Shown piece after piece: positions 25,126 to 49,680 of a DNA stretch of 49,995 bases. The notes under the pieces were generated by a model. It ran no database searches. It was given only the letters and a program-made list of their open reading frames with translations, and had not been told where the DNA came from. The stretch comes from an uncultured Eisenbergiella sp. (GTDB taxonomy: Bacteria; Bacillota; Clostridia; Lachnospirales; Lachnospiraceae): assembly GCA_947626995.1 (NCBI GenBank), contig CANQUI010000010.1, forward strand, positions 1-49,995. The letters run 5' to 3'. The stretch's first letter is position 1; each line of letters opens with the position of its first letter. Both the position numbers and the translations under genes were made by a program.

Positions 25126-26493
25126 ATGGCTGGTATTGACAATTTATTCGCGGGTAAAGTGGATGGGACCCCGATCAAGCTTTCTCCTTATATTCCGGGA
25201 ACAGTCCCGAAAAATAAGGTGTATGTGTCGTCAGAAGGTGTATGGCATCCGGATTCAGACGGCGCATGGCCGCTTCATCCCTTTGCATTTGACCGCTGGG
25301 ATGTGGAGGATATGAGCTGGCATGATACGTGTTCGCTCCATGAAGGGCTGAATCCATTTTCCATGTATAAAGTCCATGGGAAAGAGTTCCTGGATCTGCT
25401 GGGCGTGGTGAGTGTGAATACCTTTAAGGTATTTCCGGTTGGAAAAGCGCGCCATACGATCATTTGTGACCAGAATGGGAAGATCATGCTGGACGGCATT
25501 GTTATCCGCAGAAGCGAGGAAGATTTCCTGGCGACCTGTTTCCTTGACCCCAATATGCTGAATCAGATGGTTGGAAACCGTTTCCATTTTGAGAGCAGCT
25601 TCGCAGGTGAGACCAATTTCTTTTTCCAGATGTGCGGGCCGAAATCGCTTTCCATCGTGGAGGAAGCGACCCGGCAGGATCTGCACGACCTGAAATTCAT
25701 GTACACTGCGGATGCCCGGATCGAGGGAAAAGATGTTTTCATTCTTCGTACCGGGATGTCCGGTACCCTTGGCTATGAGGTGCACGGAAATATAGAGGAT
25801 GCCCATATGGTGTACCAGAAGCTCCTCGAAGTCGGAAAAAAATATGGGATTCAGGAGATCGGCAGGCATGGATATATCAATGAGCACTGTGAGGGAAGCA
25901 TTTTCCAGATTGCAGAACATTTCGGCGTGCCGTTCGATACGCCGGAGGATCCGACCGTCTATACGGGAAGTCTTCCGCGCGACAGTGAACTGATCTATCG
26001 AAGCCCGTTTGACTGTGGCTGGGGGAATCTTGTGAAATTCAATCATGATTTCATGGGTAAGGAAGCGCTTATGGCGGAAGCTGCAAGACCGCATAATACT
26101 GCCGTCCACCTGATCTGGAACAGGGAAGATGTTCTGAAAGTGCAGGCCGGGGTGATGGATCCGGATAAGCGGTATGATTACATGGATATGGTCTGTGACT
26201 ATGATTACGTCAGGAACTGCAGCGGAATCCATATTGATGCTGTCTACGACGGAGACAGGATGATCGGCGCTTCCTCTGGAAGAACTCTGGTGGCAAAAAC
26301 GAGGGAGATGATCTCTATCTGCACGATTGCCGAAGAATATGCCGTGGAAGGGAAAGAAGTGGAAGTTCTCTGGGGGAACCCCGGCACAAATCAGGTGCGT
26401 ATCAGGGCTACAGTAACTTTATTCCCGTATATCAAAGAAGGGCGCAATGAGGATTTTGATACGGAAACAATTCCCCATCCGGTATTTGACTGA
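25126..26493 (+). CDS. LigM-like (GcvT-fold) O-demethylase homologue 3
   Basis: A 455-residue close paralogue of homologue 1 with the same motifs in the same order: S-E-G-V-W-H-P, W-P-L-H-P-F, F-P-V-G-K-A-R-H-T-I-I-C, G-T-L-G-Y-E-V-H-G, S-L-P-R-D-S-E-L, V-L-W-G-N-P-G-T-N-Q-V-R-I. It has a longer N-terminus by about 12 residues. ACGGAGG precedes the ATG. It follows ftsH by 97 bases in the same direction. Duplication of the homologue 1 type within one cluster, separated by four genes, suggests specialisation. The presumed cofactor is tetrahydrofolate, as in LigM; no corrinoid protein or activase gene is found nearby, unlike most acetogen O-demethylase loci. Confidence 0.82.
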   Translation: MAGIDNLFAGKVDGTPIKLSPYIPGTVPKNKVYVSSEGVWHPDSDGAWPLHPFAFDRWDVEDMSWHDTCSLHEGLNPFSMYKVHGKEFLDLLGVVSVNTFKVFPVGKARHTIICDQNGKIMLDGIVIRRSEEDFLATCFLDPNMLNQMVGNRFHFESSFAGETNFFFQMCGPKSLSIVEEATRQDLHDLKFMYTADARIEGKDVFILRTGMSGTLGYEVHGNIEDAHMVYQKLLEVGKKYGIQEIGRHGYINEHCEGSIFQIAEHFGVPFDTPEDPTVYTGSLPRDSELIYRSPFDCGWGNLVKFNHDFMGKEALMAEAARPHNTAVHLIWNREDVLKVQAGVMDPDKRYDYMDMVCDYDYVRNCSGIHIDAVYDGDRMIGASSGRTLVAKTREMISICTIAEEYAVEGKEVEVLWGNPGTNQVRIRATVTLFPYIKEGRNEDFDTETIPHPVFD

Positions 26494-30792: not shown

Positions 30793-30821
30793 TTGACAAA
30801 AAGTTAGCTGCATGTTACAGT
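30793..30821 (+). promoter_or_regulatory. Possible promoter of the B12-riboswitch operon
   Basis: TTGACA at 30793-30798 and TACAGT at 30816-30821 with a 17-base spacer. The -10 is only 4/6. A second TTGACA at 30859 has no good partner at the right distance. The leader would begin about 60 bases before the conserved aptamer. Confidence 0.4.
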
Positions 30822-30887
30822 TTATAAGGTAATGATAGACAATAATTTCACAATATGCTTGACAGAGTGTCGTATCTATAGGTTTCT

Positions 30888-31030
30888 ATAGGATACGGTG
30901 AAAAGGGAAACAGGTGAAAATCCTGTACAATGCCGTTGCTGTGAGAGCTGAGTTATCTCTAAAACGTCACTGGGAAACTGGGAAGACAGGGAATAGCGCT
31001 GAAGCTCAAGTCAGAATACCTGCTTTGTCA
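30888..31030 (+). ncRNA. Cobalamin (adenosyl/methyl-B12) riboswitch
   Basis: Conserved aptamer blocks appear in order: GGGAAACAGGTGAAAATCC (30905-30923), a GCCGTTGCTGTG block (30932-30943) like the usual CCGC-N-ACTGT, then GTCACTGGGAAACTGGGAAG (30966-30985), corresponding to the B12 box and following GGGAAG, and AAGTCAGAATACC (31008-31020). Downstream, at 31128, a terminator hairpin with a T run precedes the first gene, as expected for an OFF switch: B12 bound would favour termination. The exact ends and the anti-terminator pairing are not resolved by eye. Confidence 0.88.
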
Positions 31031-31127
31031 ATTTCTTCAGAATGCTGCGAGCTACAGTAGGAGGAAAAATTACGGAGGGTAAAATGCCAATGCTGCCATA
31101 AGGCGTGTTGGCTTTATCATCGTTGAC

Positions 31128-31155
31128 AAGGCATGCATTCGCATGTCTTTTTTTT
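31128..31155 (+). terminator. Expression-platform terminator of the B12 riboswitch
   Basis: Left arm AAGGCATGC, loop ATTC, right arm GCATGTCTT (one G-U pair), ending in eight T residues at 31148-31155. It lies 31 bases before the ATG of the nitrogenase-like fusion and about 100 bases after the aptamer. Confidence 0.88.
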
Positions 31156-31185
31156 GTCTTAATAAGAAATTCCAAGGAGGAAAAC

Positions 31186-33387
31186 ATGCAGATAGCGGTT
31201 TACGGAAAGGGCGGGATCGGGAAATCCACAGTCAGCGCCAATTTGTCGGCGGCGCTGGCAAAGAACGGCAAAAAAGTACTACAGATCGGATGTGATCCCA
31301 AGCATGATTCCACACGACTGATTCGCCACGGTCAAAAAATCCGGACAGTGCTGGATTATCTATTGCATACTCCCGTAGACGAACAGACAGTCCAGGACAT
31401 ATTGATGGAAGGGTATCTGGGTGTTGGCTGTGTGGAAGCCGGAGGTCCTCGTCCAGGCATGGGATGCGCAGGAAGGGGAATTCTCACTTCCTTTGAATTT
31501 CTGAATCGATTTGATTTGATATCCCACTATGATACGGTTATCTATGATGTGCTGGGTGATGTGGTCTGCGGCGGATTCGCAGTGCCTGTACGCAGCCAGT
31601 ACGCGGATGCCATATTCCTGGTGACCAGCGGAGAAGCCATGTCTCTCTATGCCGCCAATAACATTCTTCAGGGAATCCGAAATTTATCGCCTGGGCAAAA
31701 ACGCATCGCGGGTATTATCTATAACAGCCGGGGAAAGGGAGACACACCAGAATGCGTAGAGAACTTTGCGGCGGCTGCAGGGCTTCCTGTCTGCGTCCGT
31801 ATTCCCAGAAGCACAACCTTTGCCAGGGCTGAAATGGAAGCAATGACTGTAGTGGAACAGGATGAGAATAGTATAGAAAGCAGAATTTTTATGGAACTGG
31901 CCCGGCAGATTACCAATAAGCTGCCTCTTTATCCGGCACTTCCCCTGGATGAGGAACAGATAGAACAATTCCTCCGGGGCGAAGCCTGGACAAAAGCTGC
32001 AGGAGTGCCTGTTCAGCTGGAAAAGACGTCGAAGGCGGGAGAGAAAGCGGAAGTAACTGCCTTCCCATCGCCCATTCCGCAAAAACGCGCTCTGTCAGAT
32101 CCTTTCAGCAGAATTCCTCTCTACGGCTGCGCTTATCGGGGCGCTGTGGATCTGGCGGTTCATGTGAAGGATACCGCCGTTTTAGGGCATGCTCCCAAAA
32201 GCTGTACCTGGTACGCGGTCAATGGAATTTCCGGATACTCCAGAAGAGGACTTTATGAAAGAGGAATCCTCTATCCGGCCTTTATTCCGCAAAATTTCGA
32301 GAATACGGATATTACCATGCAGGATGCCATTTTTGGCGGAGTGAAGCATGCCAGGCGCAAAGCTCTGGAACTTGCAAAAAGAGGCGCAAAAAGCATAATT
32401 GCCGTGACTGCCTGCATTCCCGGTATGAGTGGAGATGATCTGACTCCCGTCAAAGAAGAACTGGAGTCATTGGGCTGTGAAATGTATATTGTCCGAACCG
32501 ATGGAGTGGAGGCCGGAGATTACAATGAAGGAATGGCGCTGTGTTACCGAACGCTGGCAAAAGAGGCGGTACGACGGGAAATAATGCCGGAAAAAGACAG
32601 CATAAACCTGGTCTACGAGCATACGATCTCATCGAAAACAGATGAGAATTACATCGCAGTGAAGAAAATTCTCGATGAGCTTGGCATCCGCATCAACTGT
32701 CGTTTTCTGTGCGCATCGTCTATGAAGGACATTCATGGTTTCCTCAGGGCGCCTTACAGCGTAATGGTCCGCGAGGACCAGCTTGGACTGGAACTGAAAC
32801 AGATATTTGAAACAGAATACGGCTGCCGTTTTCTTCCCGGTGTACTGCCCAGAGGCTTCCGGGAAACCGTCCGATGGACAGAACTTCTGGGAAAACTTTA
32901 TAAAAAAGAGGAAGAGGCGGCTTCACTGGTTCAGCAGGCAAAAATGGATTACGAAGCCCGGATCCGCAAACTGAAGCCAGTTTTTGCGGGGAAACGGGTG
33001 CTGATCTTTCTTACAGATACAAATTATGGGTGGCTTTTTGAACTGGCGCAGGATCTGGAGCTCCATGTGGAAAGGACGATTCTTCTGGGGATGAAGGGAG
33101 ACAGCAATCCCGCCTGGAATCGGAGATTTTCGGCAGACTGGGCGTCTGACAGGAGGAATCTGGAAGAGGCACTGGAAATACTGAAGCCGAATATTGTTCT
33201 CCTTAATGAGCCTTCGTCACTGGAGAGTGTTTCCGATTGCTGCCGCCTGATTCCGGTCATGCGGGATCCAGGCTGCGGATTTTTTTCCGGAGCTGAAAGA
33301 GCCGGCGAATGGGTAAGGCTGATGGACCGTAAAATTGAAGGCAGGTGGAAAAGTGATAAATCCTTATTTGAGAAATACTACAGCTGA
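31186..33387 (+). CDS. Fused NifH-like / NifD-like nitrogenase-family reductase
   Basis: A 733-residue protein that joins two normally separate subunits. Residues 1 to ~265 are an Fe-protein (NifH/BchL/CfbC-like): P-loop G-K-G-G-I-G-K-S at 7-14, and the two [4Fe-4S] ligands Cys94 (G-M-G-C-A-G-R-G) and Cys128 (D-V-V-C-G-G-F). After a linker (~265-305), residues ~310-733 form a NifD-like domain with cysteines 315 (Y-G-C-A-Y-R-G), 340 (P-K-S-C-T-W-Y) and 410 ([12 protein letters not shown]), the positions that hold the P-cluster-type iron-sulfur centre. The C-terminal segment D-P-G-C-G-F-F-S-G lacks the His expected for a FeMo-cofactor ligand, so nitrogen fixation is unlikely. Start at ATG 31186 after AAGGAGG. 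It forms a complex with the next gene product; substrate unknown. Confidence 0.9.
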
Positions 33388-34717
33388 TTATATTACAGGT
33401 CTTGTTTCCGCCTGTGAGGGGATAAAAGACAGCCTGGTACTGCTGAACGGCCCTCTTGGCTGCCGGTTTTATCACGGGTACGCTTCCGGACAGTCTCTTC
33501 TGAAGGCATCGGAACTGTGGGGGCTCAGGGGAGAACTTCGACTGGAAAACGCCATGGAGGATGCTCTCATACGAAGCCAGTATTTTGCTGGAACTCCCCA
33601 GATTCCCGGTACGAATCTGCGCTATGAGGACTATATTTTCGGAACAAGAGAGCAGCTGAACAGGGCTCTGAATGATATTTTGACAGAGCGGAAGTACAGT
33701 CTTCTGGCGGTGATCCAGACTCCGGGCACTTCTCTTTTGGGAGAAGGGCTGGAAGGAGATCTGGACAAGATTTCTGGGGAGTTCCATATTCCTTTCCTGT
33801 TTTTTGAAAATCCTCAATTCTCAGAAGATCCCTGCAGAGGGTACGATGACGCCATGGTACGGCTTCTGGAGCTCCTGGTCCCGGCCAGCAAATGTCAAAA
33901 AAAATCCGGCGGTAAACCGAAAGTGAATCTCTTCGGCTTTCATACCTATGAAAAATACCTGGAGGGAGACGTCGCTGAGGCAGAACGGCTGCTGGCTCTC
34001 TGTGGGATCGATGTGGGCTGTGTGGCCGGGGCAAATTGTACTTTGGAAAGCTTTCAGTCCATTTCCGATGGGGACGTTAATGTGGTTTTTTCACCGGAGC
34101 GATGCAGAAAGACAGAACGATTTCTCCGGAAACATTATAACAGTCCGGTATTCTGTACGAGTGAAATGCCTGTAGGACCGGATCTGACGGAAAAATGGCT
34201 GCGGGAAATTTCCGCTCTGCTGCATACAGACTGCGGACCGGCCCTTTTAGAAATCCAGAGGACAAGAGCTCGTATGTTTTATTATATTGCCCGGTTTATG
34301 GGCGGACAGGGGTTCCCGGGAGATCTCCGTTATGCTGCGGAAGGGGAATGTTCCCTGTTGTGCGGCTATGTGGATTTTTTATCCAATTACTTGGGTATCC
34401 GCCCTGTATGTATCCATCCCCTTTATGCTTCCAATGAAGAAGAACGGGAAAGGCTTACGGAAATGCTGAGACAGATCGGAGCCGAACAGGTTCTGGATTT
34501 CGATATTATGCAGGTGCGGGATTCGATCCTTTTGGGAAATGCCAATACTATTCTGGCTGTCACGGCTTACAGCAAAAATATTTATGGAATTGAGACAGCT
34601 TATCCCTCCTCGGGATACATTCATGTAACGCCCAAAACACATATCGGCTGTGCCGGCGCTCTGTATCTTCTGGAACAGATATTAAACGGGGTCAGGCTGC
34701 TGCGGGCATGGCGCTGA
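33353..34717 (+). CDS. NifK-like nitrogenase-family subunit
   Basis: About 454 residues, a component-1-type partner for the upstream fusion. The N-terminal Y-L-R-N-T-T-A-D-Y and C21 (V-S-A-C-E-G) and C37 (G-P-L-G-C-R-F-Y) match the first two cluster cysteines of NifK/NifE/BchB-like proteins. At the third position (residues 121-137, [12 protein letters not shown], then L-E-G-D-L) the cysteine is missing. I prefer GTG 33353 with AGGTGG upstream over TTG 33335. Either way the gene overlaps the end of the fusion, showing tight coupling. C-terminal features include a G-C-A-G-A-L segment near 436. It would form an alpha-beta complex like the DK or NB pairs. Confidence 0.88.
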
Positions 34718-34761
34718 ACCGGGAAGGAAATAAATGAACTCTGGGACAAAGGAGAATAATC

Positions 34762-35511
34762 ATGTCACATATTAACGAAATCAAGGATTACTGGAATCTG
34801 CGGGCCAGGGGATTTTCCATGGCAGTAGAAGAAGAATTAAGCGGCGGCGTAAGGAAGCGCTGGGAAAATATTTTCCGGAAACAGTTTCCGGAAGAGGGCG
34901 CTGATATATTGGACGACGGTACCGGTGCCGGATTTTTTCCGGTAATGCTGACCGCTCTGGGGCACCGTGTCACAGCTATTGACTACTCTGATCAAATGAC
35001 GGAACAGGCTAAAAAAAGATTTGAAAACCTTGGCATTTCTGTCCGGGTATTGCAGATGGACGCTCAGAAACTTCAGTTTCCAGATGAAAGCTTTGACGCT
35101 GTAGTATCCAGAAATGTACTCTGGAACCTGGACGATCCGGCAAAGGCTTATGCAGAGATGATGCGGGTACTGCGTCCCGGAGGAAAGCTCATTGTGGAAG
35201 ACGGCAATATGTATCTCTATCATCATGATAAAGAATATGCGGCCCTGCACGAAAAAGCAACCGCAAAATTTCAGGCGGACAAAAAGAACGATGGTGGACT
35301 TCATGGAAAATATAATACGGATAATGTGGATTTTTCCATCATTGAAGAAATTGCGAAAGATCTGCCCATGAGTTATAAAAGAAGACCGCAGTGGGATTTT
35401 CAGACACTGATCGAGCTGGGCGCTAATGACATTCATGTGACTGTTCAGGGCGGCGTCCTGCCTATGGGCTTTCTGATTATTGCCGGAAAGGGAGGGGAAA
35501 GCCATGCTTAA
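34762..35511 (+). CDS. Class I SAM-dependent methyltransferase
   Basis: A 249-residue UbiE/Methyltransf_11-type enzyme. The SAM loop is I-L-D-D-G-T-G-A-G-F-F (about 49-59), the acidic tip is A-I-D-Y-S (near 76), followed by M-D-A-Q-K-L-Q-F-P-D (about 100-109) and the post-motif L-R-P-G-G-K-L. The C-terminal cap is helical and variable and probably holds the substrate. ATG after AAAGGAGAATAATC. It follows the NifK-like gene by 44 bases and overlaps the first permease gene by 8 bases. Within this operon it may methylate the compound that the nitrogenase-like complex reduces or that the ABC system imports. Confidence 0.88.
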   Translation: MSHINEIKDYWNLRARGFSMAVEEELSGGVRKRWENIFRKQFPEEGADILDDGTGAGFFPVMLTALGHRVTAIDYSDQMTEQAKKRFENLGISVRVLQMDAQKLQFPDESFDAVVSRNVLWNLDDPAKAYAEMMRVLRPGGKLIVEDGNMYLYHHDKEYAALHEKATAKFQADKKNDGGLHGKYNTDNVDFSIIEEIAKDLPMSYKRRPQWDFQTLIELGANDIHVTVQGGVLPMGFLIIAGKGGESHA

Positions 35512-36448
35512 GATGATCCAAAAGAGGCTGATCTCCCTGGTGGTCATCCTTTTCGGCCTCTCCATTCTTACCTTTGGCTTAACCTACCTTCTGCCTTCGG
35601 ACCCTATTGAAGAGCTGATCACCTCCATGGGAAGCGGCCATGATCCGGAGGTAATCGCAAGATTGGAAAAACAGTTCGGTACGAACCGCCCTTTCTGGGT
35701 ACAGTATACGGACTGGATCAAAGGAGTGGTTCTTCACGGAGATTTCGGTATTTCTGTCAAATATAACAAACCAGTGAAGGAAGTGATCGCTCAGAAGCTG
35801 CCATATACTGTGGAACTTGCCTGTACCTCTTTTCTGACCATGATCCTGATTTCCTTCCCGCTGGGAATTCTCTCAGCAGTGTATAAAGATCGGACAGCTG
35901 ATTATATTATTCGCTTCATGTCCTTTGTGGGAGTATCCATGCCCAGCTTCTGGTTCGGTATGATCCTGATCTGGATCCTGGCGGTAAATCTGGGATGGCT
36001 GCCGGTGGCCGGTTCCGGCTCCTGGAAGCATATCATTATGCCTACTCTTACGCTGTCGATAGGGATGAGCTGTTCCTATATCCGCCGGATCCGCGCGGTA
36101 ATGGTGGAGCAGCTGAGTGAGGAGTACATATCCGGCTGCAAATCCCGCGGTGTAGGAAAAGCACGGATCATCTTTCTTCATGTTTTGCCGAATTCACTGC
36201 TGGCGGTAGTGACCATGCTCGGTATGTCCTTCGGCGGAATGCTGGGAGGCACGATGATCGTGGAGATGATTTTCAGCTGGAACGGCATCGGGCAGGTATG
36301 CACAACTGCCATTTCGGCACGGGATTACGCACTGATTCAGGGCTATGTAATGTGGATGGGCTTTATTTATGTGATGGTGAATCTGCTGGTGGATATTTCC
36401 TATTCCCTGATCGATCCGCGCATCAGAAGGGGGATGGCACAGAGATGA
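35504..36448 (+). CDS. Opp/Nik-type ABC transporter permease 1 (OppB-like)
   Basis: A 314-residue permease of the dipeptide/oligopeptide/nickel importer family with six predicted membrane helices. It begins with the typical L-K-M-I-Q-K-R-L-I-S-L-V-V and has a large periplasmic-side loop after helix 1 (R-L-E-K-Q-F-G-T-N-R-P-F-W-V-Q-Y). The cytoplasmic EAA loop is near R-R-I-R-A-V-M-V-E-Q-L-S-E-E-Y-I and contacts the ATPase. I start at ATG 35504, which overlaps the last 8 bases of the methyltransferase gene. The next permease starts at an ATGA overlap with this gene's stop. Confidence 0.92.
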   Translation: MLKMIQKRLISLVVILFGLSILTFGLTYLLPSDPIEELITSMGSGHDPEVIARLEKQFGTNRPFWVQYTDWIKGVVLHGDFGISVKYNKPVKEVIAQKLPYTVELACTSFLTMILISFPLGILSAVYKDRTADYIIRFMSFVGVSMPSFWFGMILIWILAVNLGWLPVAGSGSWKHIIMPTLTLSIGMSCSYIRRIRAVMVEQLSEEYISGCKSRGVGKARIIFLHVLPNSLLAVVTMLGMSFGGMLGGTMIVEMIFSWNGIGQVCTTAISARDYALIQGYVMWMGFIYVMVNLLVDISYSLIDPRIRRGMAQR

Positions 36449-37284
36449 AACGAAAGATGAGTCCGGCGCGAACAAAAGCCTGGATTAAATTTGGCCTGAT
36501 CGCTTTTTTTGCATTGCTGTTTATTTCCTTTGCGCTGTTTGCCAGCTTTCTGGCACCCTATGATCCGCTGGAGAGTCATTACACACATATGCTGGAAGCA
36601 CCCGGCAGAAGCTTTTTCTTCGGAACGGATCAGCTTGGAAGAGATCTGTATTCACGCATTCTTTACGGCGGAAAAAGCTCCCTGCTCATTGCCTTTGCTG
36701 TGACAGGCATTGTATCTTTTACAGGCATTTTTATAGGAACGGCTGCGGGATTTTTCGGCGGCGTATTCGACAATCTGCTGATGCGTTTTTCTGATATGCT
36801 GATGGCATTTCCAGGATCCATTTTTACAATTGCACTGGTTAGCTTTATCGGTGTTGGTCTTCCAAATCTGATCCTTGCAATGTCCCTCACCGGATGGACT
36901 TTTTATGCCCGGATCAGCAGATCACTGGTACTGAGCATCAAAAATAATGTTTATGTAGAACAGGCACGACTGGGAGGCGCTTCCAATGTTAATATTCTGA
37001 TGCGCTATATTATGCCGAATGTCCTGCCCTCACTGCTGGTAAATATTTTCCAGGATATTGGCGGAAAACTGCTCACGATCTCAGGTCTGTCCCTTTTGGG
37101 ACTGGGATCTCCGCCCCCTGCTCCGGAATGGGGATTTATGCTCTCCGAGGGCAAAAATTATATGTATTCAGCCCCCTGGATGCTGATCTTTCCAGGCCTG
37201 GTGATACTGATAAGCGTAGTGATCTTCAATCTTCTGGGGGACAGCATTCAGGATCTGATGAACCCCAGGGAAAATGCGTGGTAA
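36445..37284 (+). CDS. Opp/Nik-type ABC transporter permease 2 (OppC-like)
   Basis: A 279-residue partner permease with about six helices. N-terminal half: G-T-D-Q-L-G-R-D-L-Y-S-R (near residue 60), the diagnostic motif of DppC/OppC proteins. The EAA loop is near R-I-S-R-S-L-V-L-S-I-K and Y-V-E-Q-A-R-L-G-G-A. The start codon shares the A of an ATGA overlap with permease 1. The C-terminus G-D-S-I-Q-D-L-M-N-P-R is usual for the family. The paired permeases form the membrane channel of an importer; the cargo cannot be read from them. Confidence 0.92.
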   Translation: MKRKMSPARTKAWIKFGLIAFFALLFISFALFASFLAPYDPLESHYTHMLEAPGRSFFFGTDQLGRDLYSRILYGGKSSLLIAFAVTGIVSFTGIFIGTAAGFFGGVFDNLLMRFSDMLMAFPGSIFTIALVSFIGVGLPNLILAMSLTGWTFYARISRSLVLSIKNNVYVEQARLGGASNVNILMRYIMPNVLPSLLVNIFQDIGGKLLTISGLSLLGLGSPPPAPEWGFMLSEGKNYMYSAPWMLIFPGLVILISVVIFNLLGDSIQDLMNPRENAW

Positions 37285-37370
37285 AGGCTTCTGCTGCGCG
37301 AAAAGAAACAGGATAGAACGGGGAAAGCCCTTCTATAAATAAAAAATAATATCAAGAGAGGAATGAAAGT

Positions 37371-38933
37371 ATGAGAAAAACATGGAAATCCTGTATGGCC
37401 GCAATGGCCGCATTTTCGCTGTTGACCGCAGGGTATTGCAGCACAGCTTACTGCGCGGATGCCGCAGAGGCGGAAACTGTGGAATCAAGCGAAGATTCCC
37501 ACCTGAACGTTGCCCTGTTTCTGTGGATGGAGGGACTGGATCCCGCTGACGGCTGGGCCGGCTGGACAAGCGCCCGCTGCGGTATCAGCGAAACGCTGCT
37601 GACTGCCGACGAGAATATGGATGTGGTCCCCTGCCTGGCGGACTCCTGGGAACAGGTGGATGATCTTACCTATAAATTTCACATTCGCCAGGGGGTGAAA
37701 TTCTCAAACGGCAATGATATGACACCCCAGACTGTAAAGGAATCTATTGAGCGTACCGCGGAATTAAACAGCCGGGGCGGCAACCTGAATTTGGAAAGCG
37801 TTGAGGTGGACGGTGAATATGTAATCTTTAAGACAACAGAACCGTACAGCGCCTTTCCTTATTATCTTACGGAACCCATGTGCAGTATCGTGGACACTAC
37901 AGTAGATACCAGCAATTTTGAAGCGGATCCCATCTGTACCGGACCTTACCGCTGTGTGGAATATGTACCGGAACAGAAGTATGAGCTTGTAGCAAATCAG
38001 TATTACTGGGGCGGAGTTCCTGATGTAGACAGTATCACTGTGCTGAACATCGCGGATGATACCAAGGTGAGCGCAATGCTGGCAGGCGATCTTGACGTTG
38101 CTGTGGGAGCCTCGGCAACCACATTGTCTCTGGTGGAAGGAAACGATCATATTCAGATGGTAAATGTAACAGGTACCCGTGAGTCCGATCTGGAGATCAA
38201 CTGCAGGGAAGGACGCCCCACAGCGGATCAGAACCTGCGCAAAGCTCTTTCCTACGCCATTGACCGTGACGTCATCGCGCAGATTTCCGGAAGCGGCTAT
38301 GCCGCCGGCCTGGGCAAGCCTTTCCCGGACAGCGTAGGCTACAATATGGATCAGGTACAGGGCCAGACTTATGACACAGAAAAAGCGAAGGAGTGCCTGG
38401 AACTGGCAGGGTATGCGGATTCCGACAGCAACGGATATGTAGAGAAGGATGGGGAGGAACTGGTTCTCACCATTGCGCTGCGCTCCAATGCTTCTACCGC
38501 CGTTTACCAGGCCATGCAGGATATGTGGAAGGAAGTCGGCATTCATGTGGAAATCGAACTGATGGAAAATACCAGTGATATCCGGGATACCGGAGAATTC
38601 GATTTCCTTGGCGGCGGCTGGCAGACAGTAAACAATGCGGATGGACAGTCTTATCTGAAAAACCGCTGGACTGACGGCGGCCCGGACAACTATACCGGTT
38701 ATCACAGCGATGCTTTCCAGGAGGTGATGGAGCGCCTTAACCAGGCATTCACCTATGAAGACCGCGTAGCCTGCTATGTGGAAGCCTCCCAGATCATTGC
38801 AGATGATTGTCCTACCATTTTCCTTTGCGCCAATGCCAATATCACTCTGGTGAATACAGACAAGGTAACGGATGTAACGGTCTTCCCCATCGACTATTAT
38901 ATGATCACAAACAAGTGGAAAGCTGTAAAATAA
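37371..38933 (+). CDS. Extracellular solute-binding protein (family 5)
   Basis: A 520-residue binding protein of the OppA/DppA/NikA family. Signal peptide M-R-K-T-W-K-S then a hydrophobic stretch to about residue 27. No canonical lipobox is present: cysteines at 23 and 28 (G-Y-C, A-Y-C) lack the usual L-x-(A/S/G) context, although lipid attachment at one of them is possible. SBP_bac_5 features: L-A-D-S-W-E-Q-V-D (about 86-94), Y-K-F-H-I-R-Q-G-V-K-F-S-N-G (about 99-112) and R-K-A-L-S-Y-A-I-D-R-D-V-I (about 288-300). Family cargo ranges from peptides to nickel chelates and haem, so this gene decides what the operon takes up. RBS AGAGAGG. Confidence 0.92.
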   Translation: MRKTWKSCMAAMAAFSLLTAGYCSTAYCADAAEAETVESSEDSHLNVALFLWMEGLDPADGWAGWTSARCGISETLLTADENMDVVPCLADSWEQVDDLTYKFHIRQGVKFSNGNDMTPQTVKESIERTAELNSRGGNLNLESVEVDGEYVIFKTTEPYSAFPYYLTEPMCSIVDTTVDTSNFEADPICTGPYRCVEYVPEQKYELVANQYYWGGVPDVDSITVLNIADDTKVSAMLAGDLDVAVGASATTLSLVEGNDHIQMVNVTGTRESDLEINCREGRPTADQNLRKALSYAIDRDVIAQISGSGYAAGLGKPFPDSVGYNMDQVQGQTYDTEKAKECLELAGYADSDSNGYVEKDGEELVLTIALRSNASTAVYQAMQDMWKEVGIHVEIELMENTSDIRDTGEFDFLGGGWQTVNNADGQSYLKNRWTDGGPDNYTGYHSDAFQEVMERLNQAFTYEDRVACYVEASQIIADDCPTIFLCANANITLVNTDKVTDVTVFPIDYYMITNKWKAVK

Positions 38934-38937
38934 AGAG

Positions 38938-39735
38938 ATGCATGTGCTTGACATTCAAAACTGTACCATAACATATCAAAATGGCATACCTGCAGTATCC
39001 GACGTCTCCCTCTCCGTTTCGGAGGGGGAGATCGTCAGCATTGTCGGGGAAAGCGGAAGCGGCAAGACCACGCTGATCCGTGCCATCCTGGGTCTTCTTC
39101 CGCCAGGCGGACGCATTGTGAGCGGCCAGATTCTTTTTGAGGGCATGGATCTCACAAAAGTCGGCGAGCAGCAGATGCAGGATATCCGGGGCCGCAGGAT
39201 CGCCATGATCTTTCAGGATGTAGGGGCCGCGCTGGATCCCATTCAGCGTATCCGTAATCAGTACAGAGAATCTATTGCGGTTCATGAAAAGCTTCCCCAA
39301 AAAGAATATGCGCCGCGTGCGCTGGACATGCTGAGGCGGATGCATCTGACAGATTCAGAGCGGGTAATGGACGCCTATCCTTTTGAACTGTCCGGAGGAA
39401 TGAAACAGCGTGTGGGAATTGCCATGGGCATGATTGCCAGGCCAAAGCTTCTTCTGGCGGATGAACCAACTTCTGCTCTGGACGTGACCATCCAGGCACA
39501 GGTCGTACATCAGATGAAAAAGCTTCGGGATGAATACGGAACCGCCATCATTCTTGTCACTCATAACATGGGCGTCGCTTCTTATCTTTCCAATCGGATC
39601 GGTGTGATGCGGCAGAGTAAAATGGTAGAATTCGGCACTCGGGATCAGGTTATCTATCATCCCAGAGAGCAATATACAAAGGATCTGCTGGGGGCAGTGC
39701 CGAAGCTGGGAGGGAAGCGCTTTGCAGAATCGTGA
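38938..39735 (+). CDS. Opp-type ABC ATPase (OppD-like)
   Basis: A 265-residue nucleotide-binding subunit. Walker A is G-E-S-G-S-G-K-T-T (about residues 37-45), the signature L-S-G-G-M-K-Q-R-V near 149-157 and Walker B L-L-L-A-D-E-P near 168-174 with T-S-A-L-D following. The usual C-terminal oligo_HPY extension is very short, so the protein is smaller than typical OppD (about 330). The start lies 4 bases after the stop of the binding protein with little of a ribosome binding site, so coupled translation is likely; a slightly different start is possible. It overlaps the next ATPase gene by 14 bases. Confidence 0.9.
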   Translation: MHVLDIQNCTITYQNGIPAVSDVSLSVSEGEIVSIVGESGSGKTTLIRAILGLLPPGGRIVSGQILFEGMDLTKVGEQQMQDIRGRRIAMIFQDVGAALDPIQRIRNQYRESIAVHEKLPQKEYAPRALDMLRRMHLTDSERVMDAYPFELSGGMKQRVGIAMGMIARPKLLLADEPTSALDVTIQAQVVHQMKKLRDEYGTAIILVTHNMGVASYLSNRIGVMRQSKMVEFGTRDQVIYHPREQYTKDLLGAVPKLGGKRFAES

Positions 39736-40702
39736 AATATTGCTGGAGGTCTCTCATGTAAACAAGACCTTCCCTGTAAAGAAACAGAAGCTTCACGCAG
39801 TTTCCGATATCAGCTTTTCTCTGGCCAGAGGAGAAATTCTCGGGATCGTTGGCGAGAGCGGATGCGGAAAGAGCACACTGGCCAGGATGCTGGTGGGTTC
39901 TCTGACACCATCTTCCGGTTCTATAGCCCTGGGCGGCGTGGAGTATCATCTGCTGAAAGGAAAAGAACGGCGCAGGTTCCGGCGAAAAATGCAGATGGTC
40001 TTTCAGGATCCCCTGAGCTCCTTTTCGCCCAGGATGAAGATTGGAACTTATCTTGCGGAACCTCGGCGGAATTATGACCGCATTCCTGCGAAGCAGGCTT
40101 TTAAGGAAACGGAAAAACTGCTGGAAATGGTGGGACTTCCCGGAGACTTTTTCGCCCGGTATCCTCATGAGTTATCCGGAGGACAGCTGCAGCGGGTAGC
40201 TATCGCAAGAGCGCTGGCTATTCATCCGGATTTTCTGGTCTGCGATGAAGCTACCGGCGCTCTGGATGTTTCTATACAAAATCAGATTGCCCAGCTTCTG
40301 GTGAAACTTATACGTGAGCAAAACATCGGATGCATCTTCATCGGCCATGATCTGGCTCTGATGCGCAGTGTAAGCGACCGCATAGCCGTTATGTATCTTG
40401 GACGGATCGTGGAACTGCTGGACAGTGAAGATCTTCTGGAAAAATGTGTTCATCCCTATACGCAGGCCCTTCTGGGCGCTGTATTTGACGTATACTGCGA
40501 TCAGAATGAAGAGATTATTCTGCTGGAAGGGGAACCGCCCAGCCCCCTGGATGTGGCGGAGGGATGCTCCTTTGCCGCGCGATGCTCAAAATGCGAGGAG
40601 AAATGCCGCCGGAAGCTGCCGGTTCTGACAGAATTGGAGGATGGACATCTGGTGGCCTGTCATCTGGCTGCAGGCGGATCCGCAAAATCCAGGCCAGAAT
40701 AG
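39722..40702 (+). CDS. Opp-type ABC ATPase (OppF-like) with Cys-rich tail
   Basis: A 326-residue second ATPase. Walker A G-E-S-G-C-G-K-S (about 44-51), signature L-S-G-G-Q-L-Q-R-V near 152-160, Walker B L-V-C-D-E-A with T-G-A-L-D-V. The C-terminal oligo_HPY domain contains a cysteine cluster, C-S-F-A-A-R-C-S-K-C-E-E-K-C, which in Opp ATPases can bind an iron-sulfur centre. The start is TTG 39722 inside the end of the previous gene. Last gene of the operon, followed by a strong hairpin. Confidence 0.9.
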   Translation: MQNREILLEVSHVNKTFPVKKQKLHAVSDISFSLARGEILGIVGESGCGKSTLARMLVGSLTPSSGSIALGGVEYHLLKGKERRRFRRKMQMVFQDPLSSFSPRMKIGTYLAEPRRNYDRIPAKQAFKETEKLLEMVGLPGDFFARYPHELSGGQLQRVAIARALAIHPDFLVCDEATGALDVSIQNQIAQLLVKLIREQNIGCIFIGHDLALMRSVSDRIAVMYLGRIVELLDSEDLLEKCVHPYTQALLGAVFDVYCDQNEEIILLEGEPPSPLDVAEGCSFAARCSKCEEKCRRKLPVLTELEDGHLVACHLAAGGSAKSRPE

Positions 40703-40740
40703 AAACAGTTCATAATGTGTTGTAATAATCTGTTGCAAAG

Positions 40741-40784
40741 ATTCCCTTGATCCTGCCCTTACAGGCAGGATACAAGGGAATTTT
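40741..40784 (+). terminator. Operon-end terminator
   Basis: A long near-perfect stem: left arm 40741-40757, loop CTTACA, right arm 40764-40781 with one unpaired A, followed by a short T tract (to 40784). It sits 38 bases after the last ATPase gene and closes the B12-controlled operon. The T run is short, so it may also act as a 3' stabiliser. Confidence 0.8.
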
Positions 40785-41337: not shown

Positions 41338-43062
41338 TTATGTAATATCCGAAATCTGTTTTTGGTTTTTTGTTGTTTTCTGCTCTTTAGAATGGGAAGA
41401 GGGGTCGCTCCCTAATATTGTGTCCACGTTGGAGCAGACTGTTTTTAGTTCTTTCAGGCAGATTCGAAGGTTTCGGCAGGATTCATATTGGGCGTGTTTC
41501 AGGGCAGTAAGCTTTTCCTTTTCTGCTTTCAGAACCTTCATGGAGGGCAGCCTGCCGTCGTCAGAAATATTCTTCAGTATTTTCCGTGCTTCTTCATAAA
41601 GAGTAATTTCTGCGGAGTGTTCCTGTCGAAAAAATTTTTTATTTCCTGACTCCAGATATTGCCGATAAATACCCTTGTTAGCCAGATATTGTCCGGTGAA
41701 ATGGATCTGTTCATTGATTTTTTTCAGTCCCTGTTCTGTTTCCTGCAGCGCAGTTTTTGCAAAACGGAATTGTTTCTGTACTTCAGAAAGTCTTTCGAAA
41801 AGAGTTTCTCGCGTACCATAACCATGTTCCTGGACATAGGCAATTGTTTTAGCCATTTGCTGCAGGTTTGCCAGTTTTATCTTTTTAGCGTATGCCTGAC
41901 TCTTCTGTGCCTTAACACATTTCTGGAGATCTGTCACAAGCTGAAGATCTGTCTGGATGAAAAGAAATGTTTCCAGGGCATTGGCAGCTGTTTCAGTGCA
42001 TGATGAAACCAGATTTTGAGCCGCAGCAACATTCTTTTTTTCTGAAGATGAAATAGTATTCGCATTTTGGAAAAACTTCTCGGACAGATAATTTTCCTGA
42101 TAGTGTACTCCCAGCATTCTGCCGGTGACTGGTTTTGTACGATCAGGATGGAGGTAACTAAATCTTCCCCGGCTTATTCTCAATGAAATTTTATATTTCT
42201 CTGAAAGGATTTTTTGAAATTCGTCCTTGTCTTTGGCGGTGGATACCGCTTCGTCAATAGCAGTCCTGAGATAATCTTTCTGTGTTTGATATACGGTTCT
42301 TCGTGGAGTAATCCCATCATTGGTCATCTGACGGTTTCGGGATTCCAGCTTCTGCTGGCCTCTGCGTCCGGCATGATATTCCCGATCTGTAATTTTCTGG
42401 TCAGCCTCTTTTTGCAGATCGACTTGATGGAGATGCTCTCTCTCACATATATCCATGATGGACAGTTTCAGCTGTTTCAGATAATCCTTTGTCAAATGAT
42501 GTTTATAACCAGCGCGGAAATCGCATGGGCGCAGGGAAAGCTTTCTTTCCGGTTCAAACGTTGAAAAAGATGGAAACAGTTCCGATAAATCCTGGGATTT
42601 TACATCATATTTCCGCAGGCTATTGATTACAATGTGGACGTGGATATTTCCGCTTTTGTTATGTCCATCGGTGTGCGTGCATATGAGTGTCTGGTGTCCG
42701 GGGAAATTTTTTTGGGCAAATTCAACTCCCAGCTGCTGTGCCTTTTCTCCGGTCAGACCGTTTTCTTTTGCGTCTTTCGGATCAAAACTGATGATGTAAT
42801 GATGGGACTTAATCTCATTGAAATTCTGGTTTTTATGATATTTGGCGTTCAGCTCCATGCATTCCACGTCAAAAGTGAAGGGATCACAATTCAGGCCATT
42901 CAGATAATATTCTTTGCGTGGGATCAATTTGCCGTCTGTATCCATAAGAGGTTTGTTGGTATACTCGTTGTGCTGGAAGACAAGATATCGCTGTGTTTCC
43001 CCGTAATCAGAATTCTTGCTTGCAATATGTTTCAGTATTGCCATGATGTACTCCGTTTTCAA
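41338..43062 (-). CDS. Relaxase/mobilization nuclease (MobA/VirD2-like)
   Basis: A 574-residue MobP-type relaxase. The N-terminal relaxase domain (residues 1-190) carries the three-histidine metal site: H-N-K-S-G-N-I-H-V-H-I-V-I-N near residue 130-145. Before it comes H-Y-I-I-S-F-D-P-K-D (family motif with the downstream helix). The C-terminal 300 residues are charged, helical and probably coiled-coil. It starts in an ATGA overlap with the MobC stop. It would nick one strand at oriT and pilot it to a recipient using a helper element's machinery. Confidence 0.9.
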   Translation of the reverse strand: MKTEYIMAILKHIASKNSDYGETQRYLVFQHNEYTNKPLMDTDGKLIPRKEYYLNGLNCDPFTFDVECMELNAKYHKNQNFNEIKSHHYIISFDPKDAKENGLTGEKAQQLGVEFAQKNFPGHQTLICTHTDGHNKSGNIHVHIVINSLRKYDVKSQDLSELFPSFSTFEPERKLSLRPCDFRAGYKHHLTKDYLKQLKLSIMDICEREHLHQVDLQKEADQKITDREYHAGRRGQQKLESRNRQMTNDGITPRRTVYQTQKDYLRTAIDEAVSTAKDKDEFQKILSEKYKISLRISRGRFSYLHPDRTKPVTGRMLGVHYQENYLSEKFFQNANTISSSEKKNVAAAQNLVSSCTETAANALETFLFIQTDLQLVTDLQKCVKAQKSQAYAKKIKLANLQQMAKTIAYVQEHGYGTRETLFERLSEVQKQFRFAKTALQETEQGLKKINEQIHFTGQYLANKGIYRQYLESGNKKFFRQEHSAEITLYEEARKILKNISDDGRLPSMKVLKAEKEKLTALKHAQYESCRNLRICLKELKTVCSNVDTILGSDPSSHSKEQKTTKNQKQISDIT

Positions 43063-43604: not shown

Positions 43605-44169
43605 ACAGGGCGAATCTTGCTCTGCATATCCCGAACCCGGGATGACTTTGAAAAGAAAGAGATTTTCTCACATTTGCAATTTATGACCTTTTAACTATAA
43701 GCCGTTCCGGGAGGAGAAGTGCACAATCTTTTCTTAATCTTTTCGAAAGATGCAGCATCTCAAAAACCTTTAAATACCGGATGTTGAAAGGTCGCTGGGG
43801 ACAGGGCATATACTCTGCATTACAGACGCGGTCTATGTAAATGAGTGAACAGTCTTTATGTTCAGCCAGCACAAGACTGAATGAGGCTCGTTGATATTTC
43901 AATACATCCAGCTATTAAAATTTCTCATTTGTGATCATCAGGGCAACGCCTAACTACAAAAATATTCGGATGTTCATTGAAAACCTGGAACAGAAGCAAG
44001 GTTTTAATAATCGGCATGAGATTCAGCGCGGGTACGAGACGGGATGTCTTGGGGTTATTTTCTGTACGATGCGTGATTCTTGCCTCTACAATTATGTTGA
44101 CATAGCAGGCAACAAGGATCAAAACGAATGCAGGGGATGTCCGCATCATGTCCACAGTGCTATCCTATG
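43605..44169. other. Non-coding or decayed sequence
   Basis: About 560 bases without a supported gene. Short frames exist on both strands but have neither ribosome binding sites nor recognisable products. Likely the non-coding side of oriT plus decayed DNA at the edge of the IS110 remnant. Confidence 0.45.
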
Positions 44170-44780
44170 GAGGTTACCATGCGGTATATATATCCCCACG
44201 GAAGAGGATGCTGGCATCAAGGAATATTTCCGTATGTGTGATTGCCACAAGATGTCACTCAAAAAGGTAAAACAGCAGCCCAACGTATTCTGCTTTTCCA
44301 TGGGTACTACTATGAAAGGAAAAAATAGACAATGGCGCATCTGAAATGGCTGAAGAAGCTTGATATGAAAGAACTGTACCGTGAGACGATGGAAGAATAC
44401 AAGGTGTACTATGAAGAGCAGACAGCAAAGGTTGGGAGGTTCGACGAACGGATCAAAGAAATTACCGCACAGGCAAAGTACCGAGAGAAAGTAAAACAAC
44501 TCGTATACTTCCTGGGGGATCAGGACGCATACGGCGCTGTTTCTGGCCGTGGAGGCAGGAGAGTTTGAAAGATTGGCGAAAGGAAACACTTATGCAGCGT
44601 ATCGGGACTGGCGCAAAGAGAACATTCCAGTTTCGACATATTAAACGGCTGGGGATCACAAAAGCAGGGAACGGCCGTCTGAGACTACTGTTGGCAGAAT
44701 CAGAAGGGAGTATCTGTAAGGGCGTATATCTCAGTTGCTTGTCAGTTAAAGGTAAAATGCAGTGCGCCAGGAGAGGTCTC
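44170..44780 (+). pseudogene. IS110-family transposase remnant
   Basis: The C-terminal two thirds of an IS110-type transposase spread over several frames. The motifs I-P-T-E-E-D-A-G-I-K-E-Y (44190s), K-M-S-L-K-K-V-K-Q-Q, then A-H-L-K-W-L-K-K-L-D-M-K-E-L-Y-R-E-T and K-V-G-R-F-D-E-R-I-K-E-I, and finally R-L-G-I-T-K-A-G-N with L-L-L-A-E-S are recognisable in order. Frames change near 44190, 44340, 44530 and 44640. The N-terminal DEDD catalytic part is missing, so the element is dead. Confidence 0.75.
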
Positions 44781-45548
44781 TAACAGTCAGCTGTTTGTGA
44801 TGTGATGAGAAATCAAGCGGAAATACCGCGGTATTCTGCAGCTGTTTCTGCCAGCAAAAAAATGAATAAGCAAATAGCGACAGTACCGGAAAATGATTGT
44901 GATCACTGTAAAGTCTGGGAAACTTGTGTCATTGCTATGTGTGCACGTAAAATAGTAATCCTCGCTGTTAGATCATGTTCCCTTCAGTGAATCACTAACC
45001 TGCAGATAACCATTCCACGAACAACAGAGTACCAATTGCCGGGACTGTTAAATCAGAGCTCTTTTCCAATGATGTCAGAATATCAAAATGTGGGACTTGT
45101 CAGGAAAAAAGTTTATGGAATAAGGATTTATCACTGGATAAAAGTCGATTCATAACAATGAAGTATATTTCCTAAAGTTATGCGATGTAGAACCGTATGT
45201 TTTAGAAAATTAAGTTTCTGCTTCAAATTACTTTTTAACATGAGGCATAGAAGAGATTGAGGGGAATTGTACACTTAATGAATTTGAAGCAGTGCAGTTT
45301 TCATAGAAGATTTGTCGTGATTTAAGAGAAAGTTTGAAATATATTGTGCAAAATTCAAAAAACACTATGTGTTTATAGACGATGAACACTTTATTTAGTA
45401 CAATTTAAATTAGAAATGGCGTTAGCCCAATTTACTAAAGAATGAAGAGAATGTTTTTATGCAAGGGTGTTTCTTCATGAGTGGAGAAATAATTAAGATC
45501 AGGAATGAAAAAAATTGGTTGAAATCGGTATGGCTATATGCATTTGTC

Positions 45549-45575
45549 GCGGCTCTGAACAGAGTCGCTTTTTTT
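45549..45575 (+). terminator. Terminator-like hairpin 1
   Basis: GCGGCTCTG and CAGAGTCGC (one G-U pair) separated by AA, followed by T7. A compact intrinsic terminator with no established gene immediately before it; it may end a short untranslated RNA or an anti-sigma-like leader. Confidence 0.7.
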
Positions 45576-45684
45576 AATCGACTTTTTTCGAGAAAAATCT
45601 TCCAATATCGATATTTTATCTGATTTCCAGGATGTATTTTGAGTCGATAAAGTTTTCGGATCACTTGCGTTTGAAGTTTCATTA

Positions 45685-45720
45685 AAAATATATCTGCTTA
45701 TCTACAGGCAGATATATTTT
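45685..45720. terminator. Terminator-like hairpin 2
   Basis: Perfect 13-bp arms AAAATATATCTGC and GCAGATATATTTT around a 10-base loop. The stem has A and T tracts on both sides, so it could work in either direction. It lies 160 bases upstream of the sigma-like gene. Confidence 0.6.
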
Positions 45721-45878
45721 TGAATGGAATGGTCTCGAATTTGGTAGAAAGAAGTAGATTTATAACGATTTTAATTTAGACACGAAATTTAAGGGATTCT
45801 TGTTTGGCATATAAAGTAAGAGGACAATAAGGAATATTACTTTTATCAGTGATTTTAATGGAAGGAGGTGAAAATAGT

Positions 45879-46304
45879 ATGGAAAAAAATTCTTTTCAAA
45901 ATGAAATGGATGTAAGGCAGCGGTTTCATAAGTTGTGTTACTGGGCAATGAAGTGTTCTGCTATTAACTATTACAGATATAGTGATTATCTTAAGGAGCA
46001 TGAGATCCCTTTTTCTGATCTGTCAGAGAAAGAAATGAACAAATTATATACTCTGGATGAATACGCGGCAGAAAATTATTTATTTCAAGTATTACACTAT
46101 GATGTATATGTCAGAGATGCTTTGATTGCCGAAGCTTTGGGACACCTGACGAAACGGAAGCGTGAGGTGATTCTGCTATCATTTTTTCTGGATATGAATG
46201 ATAGGGAGATTGCGAAAGCGCTGCGGGTTGCACAGAGTACGATTCATGCTCACAAAAGACGATCACTTGAATTGTTAAAAGAACATATTGGAGGAAAAAT
46301 ATAA
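45879..46304 (+). CDS. Sigma-70-like factor of a Tn916-type element
   Basis: A 141-residue sigma-like protein. The C-terminal half is a region-4 helix-turn-helix (L-T-K-R-K-R-E-V-I-L-L-S, then M-N-D-R-E-I-A-K-A-L-R-V-A-Q-S-T-I-H); the N-terminal half is helical. It corresponds to the small sigma-like ORF next to the recombination module of Tn916/Tn5801 relatives and probably controls element genes. I start at ATG 45879 with GGAGGTG 10 bases before. It overlaps the next gene by one base (TAATG). Confidence 0.85.
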   Translation: MEKNSFQNEMDVRQRFHKLCYWAMKCSAINYYRYSDYLKEHEIPFSDLSEKEMNKLYTLDEYAAENYLFQVLHYDVYVRDALIAEALGHLTKRKREVILLSFFLDMNDREIAKALRVAQSTIHAHKRRSLELLKEHIGGKI

Positions 46305-47377: not shown

Positions 47378-47478
47378 ATAGATTTAATGTGGAAAGATTT
47401 TTCGTAAGAGTTATATTTTACCTTGACCTTTGGTTAAACAGAAATTATAATGGTTATTAATGAATGGAGGTGCATATT

Positions 47479-47661: not shown

Positions 47662-47695
47662 TACGAGATTTCTTTCCTTTAGGAAAGGAGCAGAA

Positions 47696-48937: not shown

Positions 48938-48974
48938 GAAAGAGTCCTGTTTGGGCTGTAAGAGAGTAGAGTCA

Positions 48975-49641: not shown

Positions 49642-49680
49642 GCCTGATGTCTGCTTTTTTATTCTGTAAGGACTTTTAGA

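Follow-up and report, generated by a model that had tools for sequence, protein, structure and literature searches.

What does a nitrogenase-like reductase do in an operon that is preceded by a cobalamin riboswitch? The question is raised by a 49,995-nucleotide stretch of DNA from an uncultured Eisenbergiella sp. (positions 1 to 49,995 of contig CANQUI010000010.1, assembly GCA_947626995.1; here called the window). On its forward strand, eight consecutive genes encode a NifH-NifD fusion (HD), a NifK-like subunit (K), a methyltransferase dependent on S-adenosylmethionine (SAM) and the five parts of an Opp-type importer. The fused reductase belongs to a separate family, named HDK here, the loci of which carry L numbers. 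It is new here that members of this family have as neighbours CobN, CobU/S/T, BtuR, CbiZ-like and PF01261 (CbiR-type) proteins, B12-type transporters and cobalamin riboswitches. Because its relatives are often found among genes for B12 uptake and salvage, HD-K probably reduces an imported B12-type molecule at times of B12 scarcity.

The cobalamin riboswitch

The original prediction, made from the DNA sequence without database searches, placed a cobalamin aptamer and a terminator ahead of the eight genes, and this arrangement is borne out by Rfam, Pfam and the open reading frames (ORFs). A covariance-model search finds the aptamer as a match to RF00174 of 102.2 bits, above the gathering threshold of 31.5 (E 1.6e-24) and covering the whole model (1-189 of 189); its limits had been put at 30888-31030 and are corrected to 30849-31041. 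It is the only cobalamin riboswitch in the window, and the same element scores 107 bits in a search of the whole genome. The leader from 31032 to 31190 folds more stably than most shuffled versions of itself, with 4 of 200 shuffles folding as well or better. In the established logic of such riboswitches, the aptamer has no ligand when cobalamin is low, and the terminator does not form. Cobalamin riboswitches also control B12-independent alternatives.

A distinct family of nitrogenase-like reductases

Among 392 genomes of the order (E 1e-20), HD matches other proteins almost solely through its NifH half, and the D half was found in one other place, as a weak match. K as a query against 391 genomes of the class gave four clear relatives (32-33% identity), each adjoining a fused H-D gene. 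A profile of these five K sequences divided 398 genomes of the phylum bimodally, five scoring 385-681 bits and the next 151. A scan of named genomes with eight K sequences then gave 207 relatives, of which 80 were kept as L078-L157.

The 80 loci come from several bacterial phyla and from methanogens. Among them are Sporobacter, Anaerovirgula, Clostridium tetanomorphum, Urinicoccus, Ca. Formimonas, Treponema and further spirochaetes, coriobacteria, Labilibaculum, metagenome-assembled genomes (MAGs) of Chloroflexi and SAR324, Methanosarcina and Methanolobus. A fused H-D gene adjoining K is the rule on contigs that are long enough, though in L087 it appears to be split. Three pairs of loci are identical in sequence (L046/L119, L073/L140 and L075/L107), and one of each pair was left out of the counts. 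L049 and the Urinicoccus locus L154 are from different genomes; their HD proteins are 67% identical and the loci are syntenic. C. tetanomorphum has a second, different set of nitrogenase-like H, D and K genes at L191 5246-8512, besides the fused one. Carriage on plasmids was considered and rejected: 7 of 72,556 plasmid records match K, at 21-28% identity, and none of these matches extends over 80% of the query.

Phylogenetic trees place H, D and K each in one clade, separate from those of nitrogenase, DPOR and CfbCD. The H tree has 45 sequences, and all 23 from the family fall together (96/92), away from NifH, BchL and CfbC; within this group the H domain of the window groups with Lachnospiraceae L112 and L120 (99/94). 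The branch of BchX is long and joins near the family with weak support (47/74), so that a kinship with COR may exist. Among the 50 sequences of the D and K tree, family D and family K (14 rows each) both form one group (100/100); in this tree the BchY row, which was in the wrong frame (16 stops), was disregarded, and for COR the comparison by clade covers BchX. The reductase thus lies outside the other characterised clades sampled, as had been anticipated.

The NCBIfam models agree: among the matches listed, no reductase model exceeds its cut-off for HD or K. HD scores 315.4 bits against NifH (cut-off 394.35), 305.8 against CfbC (402) and 206.7 against BchL (345.15), while the best match of K is BchB at 57.9 (490.35). 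The COR models give 184.8 for BchX (cut-off 331.2) and 31.6 for BchZ (529). Membership of DPOR is rejected on the basis of these scores and the position outside the BchL/BchN/BchB clades. CfbCD is rejected likewise: HD-K has two catalytic parts by Pfam where CfbCD has one catalytic subunit, it lies on a separate branch, and it scores below the CfbC cut-off.

Cluster ligands of the D and K subunits

Family D has cysteines at the positions of NifD 62, 88 and 154 in all 14 aligned members, and these three are present in 73/73 full-length HD proteins. In family K the positions of NifK 70, 95 and 153 are occupied by Asp, Cys and Pro, again in 14/14 aligned members; the cysteine (C43, at the NifK 95 position) is found in 87/87 K proteins, and D18 in 83/87. 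Of the six P-cluster cysteines of nitrogenase, three are therefore present in D and one in K. At the position of Cys275, a ligand of the iron-molybdenum cofactor (FeMo-co), most HD proteins have Tyr and that of the window has Arg, and the column of His442, the other ligand, is a gap in all 14 aligned D sequences. The fourth ligand of DPOR is an Asp in the B subunit, where K has Cys, and isethionate reductase has one Cys in D and three in K, the reverse of the layout seen here. The three-plus-one layout of cysteines leads us to predict that D-K carries one [4Fe-4S] cluster, with no cofactor of the nitrogenase kind.

The host genome (2.50 Mb, 125 contigs, 95.04% complete) has one pair of PF00148 genes, that of the window, and gave no match to NifB at E 0.001, the protein that both nitrogenase and methylthio-alkane reductase require. 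Nitrogen fixation is rejected on the ligand pattern and on the lack of a second PF00148 pair and of a NifB match in this genome.

Gene neighbourhoods of the family

Corrinoid genes surround many of the relatives. In the Chloroflexi locus L146, genes for CobN, a CbiZ-like protein, a PF01261 protein, HD and K each overlap the next (gaps -3, -16, -3); the CobN match is over its cut-off (978.3 bits), whereas the CbiZ-like protein matches the CbiS model below cut-off (63.1 bits). Beyond K, and convergent with it, lies a cluster for a B12-type transporter, which includes a ChlI/VWA-type gene and another gene of the CobN cluster. In L114 (Spirochaetaceae) the order is HD, K, CobU, an ORF of 231 residues, CobT and CobS, and this order of clusters recurs in Treponema L148. 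The Methanolobus locus L150 has CbiZ-like and BtuF-type genes upstream (by cluster or phmmer) and CbiK downstream. Labilibaculum L101 contains four riboswitches and, judged by cluster, a PF01261-type and a FecCD gene; it also encodes a TonB receptor, an ATPase and two proteins of Peripla_BP_2 type.

Two further loci have S-layer and DUF4430 proteins among their neighbours. In L049, from a relative of Urinicoccus, a riboswitch (34.6 bits) and an unassigned gene come first; an ABC ATPase with two ATPase domains, an S-layer protein and a DUF4430 protein are encoded next, ahead of HD, K and an ECF S component. The S-layer protein has a prenyltransferase-toroid match below cut-off, and DUF4430 and the toroid are reminiscent of transcobalamin. 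L138 (Formimonas) has four cobalamin riboswitches, one of them 269 bp before HD, together with genes for CbiQ, an ABC ATPase, BtuR/CobA, S-layer and DUF4430 proteins.

Membership of PF01261 (AP endonuclease 2 superfamily) is shown for L146 and L079; three of these proteins were scanned against NCBIfam and had no match. The protein that initiates cobamide remodelling, CbiR, is itself a member of pfam01261 (PMC7733943). A comparable arrangement is operon-2 of Dehalobacter restrictus, which like some of the family loci has a cobalamin riboswitch, a B12-type transporter, CbiZ and CobN; its first gene is repressed 346-fold by added corrinoid, and the available text names no nitrogenase-like gene in it (PMC4285132).

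These neighbours bear on what is reduced. In the available part of a review, cobalt reduction falls between metal insertion by CobNST and adenosylation (PMC7242693). A Co(I) product is favoured because the neighbours of the family catalyse the flanking steps: chelatases act earlier than cobalt reduction, and BtuR/CobA and CobU/S/T later. We therefore put forward, as a proposal that we hold to be evenly poised, that HD-K of this operon acts as an ATP-dependent corrinoid reductase in salvage when B12 is scarce, most likely yielding Co(I).

The main competing explanation is that HD-K reduces the macrocycle and not the metal, by reduction of a double bond or remodelling of a corrin or other tetrapyrrole, perhaps in a metal exchange driven by a chelatase. 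DPOR, COR and CfbCD are all reductases of tetrapyrrole macrocycles, as stated in the available part of the same review (PMC7242693), and chelatases do occur beside HD-K: CobN in L088, L108, L142 and L146, CbiK in L150, and ChlI/VWA-type proteins in L108 and L146. However, chelatase loci are just 5 of the 84, and the salvage neighbours (CobU/S/T and BtuR) fit cobalt chemistry equally well or better. It also counts against ring reduction that we know of no natural reduced-corrin product. The analogy with the known enzymes speaks for ring reduction; on balance we regard it as rather unlikely, though it deserves to be kept in mind.

Other neighbours were noted around the family. A PLP-dependent enzyme cluster (PALP) lies near HD-K in L047, L048, L106, L109 and L143, where no corrinoid marker was seen. 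A protein of the DUF3786 cluster is encoded upstream of HD-K in L120 (5786-6436) and, by cluster, directly before HD in L140 (5824-6426). L050 (281-9439) has a nitrogenase-like H-D-K set upstream of a SAM riboswitch (9329-9439), an arrangement that would suit a Mar-type system linked to methionine.

Frequency of corrinoid genes and riboswitches

Searches with phmmer found a corrinoid-specific marker in 17 of 84 loci, the window included. The number becomes 23 when riboswitches are added and 28 when PF01261 and the BtuC/BtuF types are added as well; L154 counts as a marker locus through DUF4430. Individual markers are CobN in four loci (over cut-off in both that were scanned), BtuR/CobA in four (in two of these at a distance of 6-9 kb), CbiZ-like proteins in two, CbiK in one, and PF01261-type proteins in six (with the L146 protein as query). 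The phmmer markers undercount, since CbiQ was found in 2 loci in this way but has 4 Pfam matches in a control set.

Genes on the same strand with gaps of up to 150 bp were defined as operon-mates, and 53 of 83 loci have them (113 in total). Pfam analysis of 110 of the 113 found PF01261 6 times, CobN 4, Peripla_BP_2 and DUF4430 3 each, CobU, CobS and CobT 2 each and FecCD once, among the 25 of 112 families listed.

Riboswitches were compared with a genome background in 35 of the 40 named loci searched with Rfam. One or more lie anywhere in 8 loci where 1.26 would be expected. Within 1.5 kb upstream and on the strand of HD, a cut-off picked after the hits were seen, they occur in 5/35 (L079, L082, L090, L101 and L138) against 0.05 expected. 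In L090 a gene on the opposite strand lies between riboswitch and HD; without it 4/35 remain, with a Poisson P of 2.7e-7 against 0.051 expected. The background of 258 riboswitches in 141.5 Mb (50 genomes) was obtained with stricter filters and with at most 40 candidates scored per genome, and may be too low. The window is left out of all these riboswitch counts, and a regular expression for the B12 box, which missed several Rfam hits, was not used for them. The riboswitches and neighbours of the relatives together lend support to the link to a corrinoid or tetrapyrrole that the original prediction had offered as one of two readings.

Evidence against a corrinoid substrate, and other candidates

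Several observations weigh against corrinoid reduction. By phmmer, 56 of the 84 loci have none of the listed corrinoid markers, and this is so for 24 of the 41 loci of at least 15 kb and for 32 of the 43 below that length. Of the 80 named loci, 40 were searched with Rfam, which found a riboswitch in 9 and none in 31; among the first seven family loci (1/4 and 1/3) it found one in L049 and L074 alone, and that of L074 is downstream of HD-K. C. tetanomorphum L118 has long flanks, with genes for an FAD oxidoreductase and an ABC exporter upstream and no corrinoid marker. L120, the closest to the window in gene content, has neither a cobalamin riboswitch in its 20 kb by Rfam nor a corrinoid marker. 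Control genes from the same loci, separated from HD-K by 5 kb or more (110 of 188 analysed), include CbiQ 4 times, CobN and DUF4430 twice each, and BtuR and FecCD once each, among the 25 of 137 families listed. Since corrinoid families are present in this control, and corrinoid regions are wide, the tally of operon-mates is not clean.

The partners in the operon and the host genome add to this side. No homologue of the methyltransferase is present in any of 86 other loci (phmmer, E 1e-4). Conservation of the whole eight-gene order, proposed beforehand as a check, was not found among the loci examined. The importer itself is complete by Pfam and NCBIfam, with a binding protein, two permeases and two ATPases. 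The host already appears to have a B12 importer: contig C62 (L166 1-3729) reads BtuF-type protein, FecCD permease (BtuC), ABC ATPase (BtuD) and PF01923 adenosyltransferase, with a riboswitch match of 25.2 bits, below cut-off, just upstream, which with that of the window makes two candidates in the genome. This BtuFCD-type importer weakens the claim of the Opp-type system to be the only importer of corrinoids. In favour of corrinoid salvage, on the other hand, count this BtuFCD set with its adenosyltransferase and the further content of the genome: CobS, four matches to B12-binding domains (three over cut-off) and one TP_methylase. A single TP_methylase means that there is no full corrin pathway, and from its gene content the host looks like a user and salvager of B12 that already owns a B12-type importer.

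The binding protein of the Opp-type importer is nearest to nickel-binding proteins, its best matches in the PDB being 3t66 (165.4 bits) and 4ofj (114.5), and permease 1 exceeds the cut-off of the Opp2B 'nickel' model. The operon might thus serve metal acquisition, taking up a cobalt or nickel chelate at low B12, with HD-K and the methyltransferase building or processing a chelator or metal cofactor. Fur- and ZnuA-type families among the operon-mates, by cluster most likely those of L113 and L127, would fit. We nevertheless consider this quite improbable. The heme-binding protein 3m8u also matches the binding protein (97.1 bits), so that what the importer carries cannot be read from the fold; the host lacks a de novo corrin pathway in which to use cobalt; and of the loci examined, L120 and L123 alone have an Opp-type gene set close to HD-K. 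In the two Syntrophomonas MAGs, L113 (5033-8019) and L127 (11375-14441), the Fur-type regulator and ZnuA-type importer are probably encoded directly downstream of HD-K, judging from cluster labels and the family tally.

The remaining points concern the reductase. The best PDB match of the K profile is 9d9u chain C (132.8 bits, the next being 84.8), whereas the D profile is nearest to nitrogenase alpha (137.6) and NifE (135.5). We take 9d9u and 9fmg to be methylthio-alkane reductase; their database title is merely 'Nitrogenase'. The single HD protein of the 73 with a cysteine at the Cys275 position is that of Methanosarcina L103 (HD gene 7602-9995). Isethionate reductase lacks both FeMo-co ligands and acts on a sulfonate, as described in the available text of the report (PMC11423573), so that missing cofactor ligands are no proof of a tetrapyrrole substrate.

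The resemblance to these enzymes would suit a B12-independent bypass, in which a small sulfur or methylated compound is imported and reduced to stand in for what a B12 enzyme, for example methionine synthase, would make, and the logic of the riboswitch suits such alternatives too. This had been the second reading of the original prediction, and the analysis found no support for it. Methylthio-alkane reductase would be expected to need NifB; K has no Cys at NifK 70 and 153, D of the window lacks both Cys275 and His442, and the cysteine layout is the reverse of that of isethionate reductase. About one third of the relatives have corrinoid markers, although sulfur genes were not systematically sought. 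Of the candidates considered here, we judge the bypass the least probable.

Organisation of the operon and its surroundings

All the genes are co-directional, and most overlap or almost abut, up to the long hairpin and T run at which the operon had been predicted to end. The gene labels assigned beforehand are each backed by a Pfam match, including both Fer4_NifH and Oxidored_nitro within the single ORF of HD (Table 1). The best NCBIfam match of the methyltransferase is NF043040 (CpaM, corrinoid protein-associated methyltransferase), at 72.9 bits below the cut-off of 180.

Table 1 Features of the operon in the window
Feature	Position	Strand	Basis
Sigma-70-type promoter-like site (TTGACA, 17 nt, TG before TACAGT)	30793..30821	+	10/12 matches; consensus match alone
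Cobalamin riboswitch aptamer	30849..31041	+	RF00174
Terminator-like hairpin and T run (expression platform)	31128..31149	+	Fold and sequence reading
NifH-NifD fusion (HD), 733 aa	31186..33387	+	PF00142 298 bits (residues 1-263); PF00148 136.5 bits (residues 315-672)
NifK-like subunit (K), overlaps HD	ORF 33335..34717, probable GTG start 33353	+	PF00148 Oxidored_nitro 137.2 bits; start judged from sequence
Class I SAM-dependent methyltransferase, 249 aa	34762..35511	+	PF08241 Methyltransf_11 97.9 bits
Opp/Nik-type permease 1 (BPD_transp_1)	35504..36448, ATG at 35504	+	NF045470 Opp2B 362.5 bits, above cut-off 350
Opp/Nik-type permease 2 (BPD_transp_1)	36445..37284	+	NF045474 Opp2C 280.4 bits, cut-off 300
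Family 5 solute-binding protein (SBP_bac_5)	37371..38933	+	PF00496 268.5 bits
ABC ATPase 1	38938..39735	+	PF00005 113.6 bits; NikD-type 236.7 bits, cut-off 318.7
ABC ATPase 2	39722..40702	+	PF00005 114.8 bits; PF08352 56.8 bits
Long hairpin then TTTT, operon end	40741..40781	+	Sequence reading

Just past the end of the operon, at 41338-43062, a relaxase-like protein was identified by reading. The GC content is 0.34 and 0.39 at the ends of the window (1-9000 and 44001-49995), against 0.50 within the operon, and mobile elements probably flank the region. Elsewhere in the window, three similar proteins resembling the folate-dependent demethylases GcvT/LigM (17965-19293, 19646-21097 and 25126-26493; by reading, without a family scan) have a flavin reductase-like gene among them (21110-23068), and together these four genes are possibly a locus for B12-independent O-demethylation. 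An FtsH-like AAA protease (23213-25028, by reading) is split over the overlapping frames 23213-24004 and 23766-25028, indicating a frameshift in the gene or in the assembly.

Proposed function

The corrinoid-reductase proposal rests on gene neighbours. If it is correct, the operon would work as follows. At low cobalamin the riboswitch would let transcription through, and importer, HD-K and methyltransferase would be made. The importer would take up a corrinoid, or possibly a cobalt or nickel chelate. The H part would act as the Fe protein, with ATP hydrolysis driving electrons into the D-K cluster, from where they would pass at low potential to a corrinoid bound at the interface of the two, the cobalt most likely becoming Co(I). 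A partner would then alkylate the Co(I): the SAM methyltransferase in the window, or the corrinoid adenosyltransferase in some of the relatives.

HD-K has features in common with several known systems. Like DPOR (BchL-BchN-BchB) it consists of an Fe protein and a two-subunit body, with three cysteines in the D-type subunit and no FeMo-co cysteine; it differs in its separate clades, in the Cys of K in place of the BchB Asp and in the H-D fusion, which DPOR, an enzyme of chlorophyll synthesis, does not have. CfbCD, the tetrapyrrole reductase of F430 synthesis, has a GPxGC motif resembling K, but a single catalytic subunit and a separate branch. In the genome of Methanosarcina KYL-1, HDK (L103) occurs alongside a pair that was read as CfbC/CfbD-like (L188). 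The cysteines of NifEN match those of D and K in position, three being in E and one in N, yet NifE keeps the cofactor cysteine that 72 of the 73 family HD proteins lack, and its clades are separate. The methylthio-alkane and isethionate reductases also have nitrogenase-like H, D and K, the former presumably including the best match of K, but they differ in cysteine layout, and the host has no NifB match.

The family has been seen before. Dos Santos et al. (2012; PMC3464626) mention fused nifH-nifE and nifN-like genes in Archaea and Firmicutes '(data not shown)', and in the available text the fused sequences are filtered out of the tree and given no function. These are probably the same family as HDK. 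In the literature searched, which included few subscription papers, we found no function assigned to the fused family; older surveys of B12 regulons could list such loci.

For the family as a whole, we think the balance tips slightly towards a new functional class, an ATP-powered reductase of B12 or its precursors in fermentative bacteria, spirochaetes and methanogens, which would either connect alkylation with metal insertion and salvage or alter the corrin ring. The functions of nitrogenase-like enzymes have so far been found singly, in chlorophyll, F430 and sulfur compounds. HDK, a family of several bacterial phyla and archaea that was set aside in the 2012 census, now gains a testable substrate class. 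If the proposal is true, it would name the reductase for the low-potential Co(I) step that anaerobic salvagers of B12 need, and a corrinoid branch would join those of chlorophyll and F430 in the nitrogenase superfamily. It would also give a use to those nifH-like genes of gut genomes that can easily be mistaken for nitrogen-fixation genes in counts.

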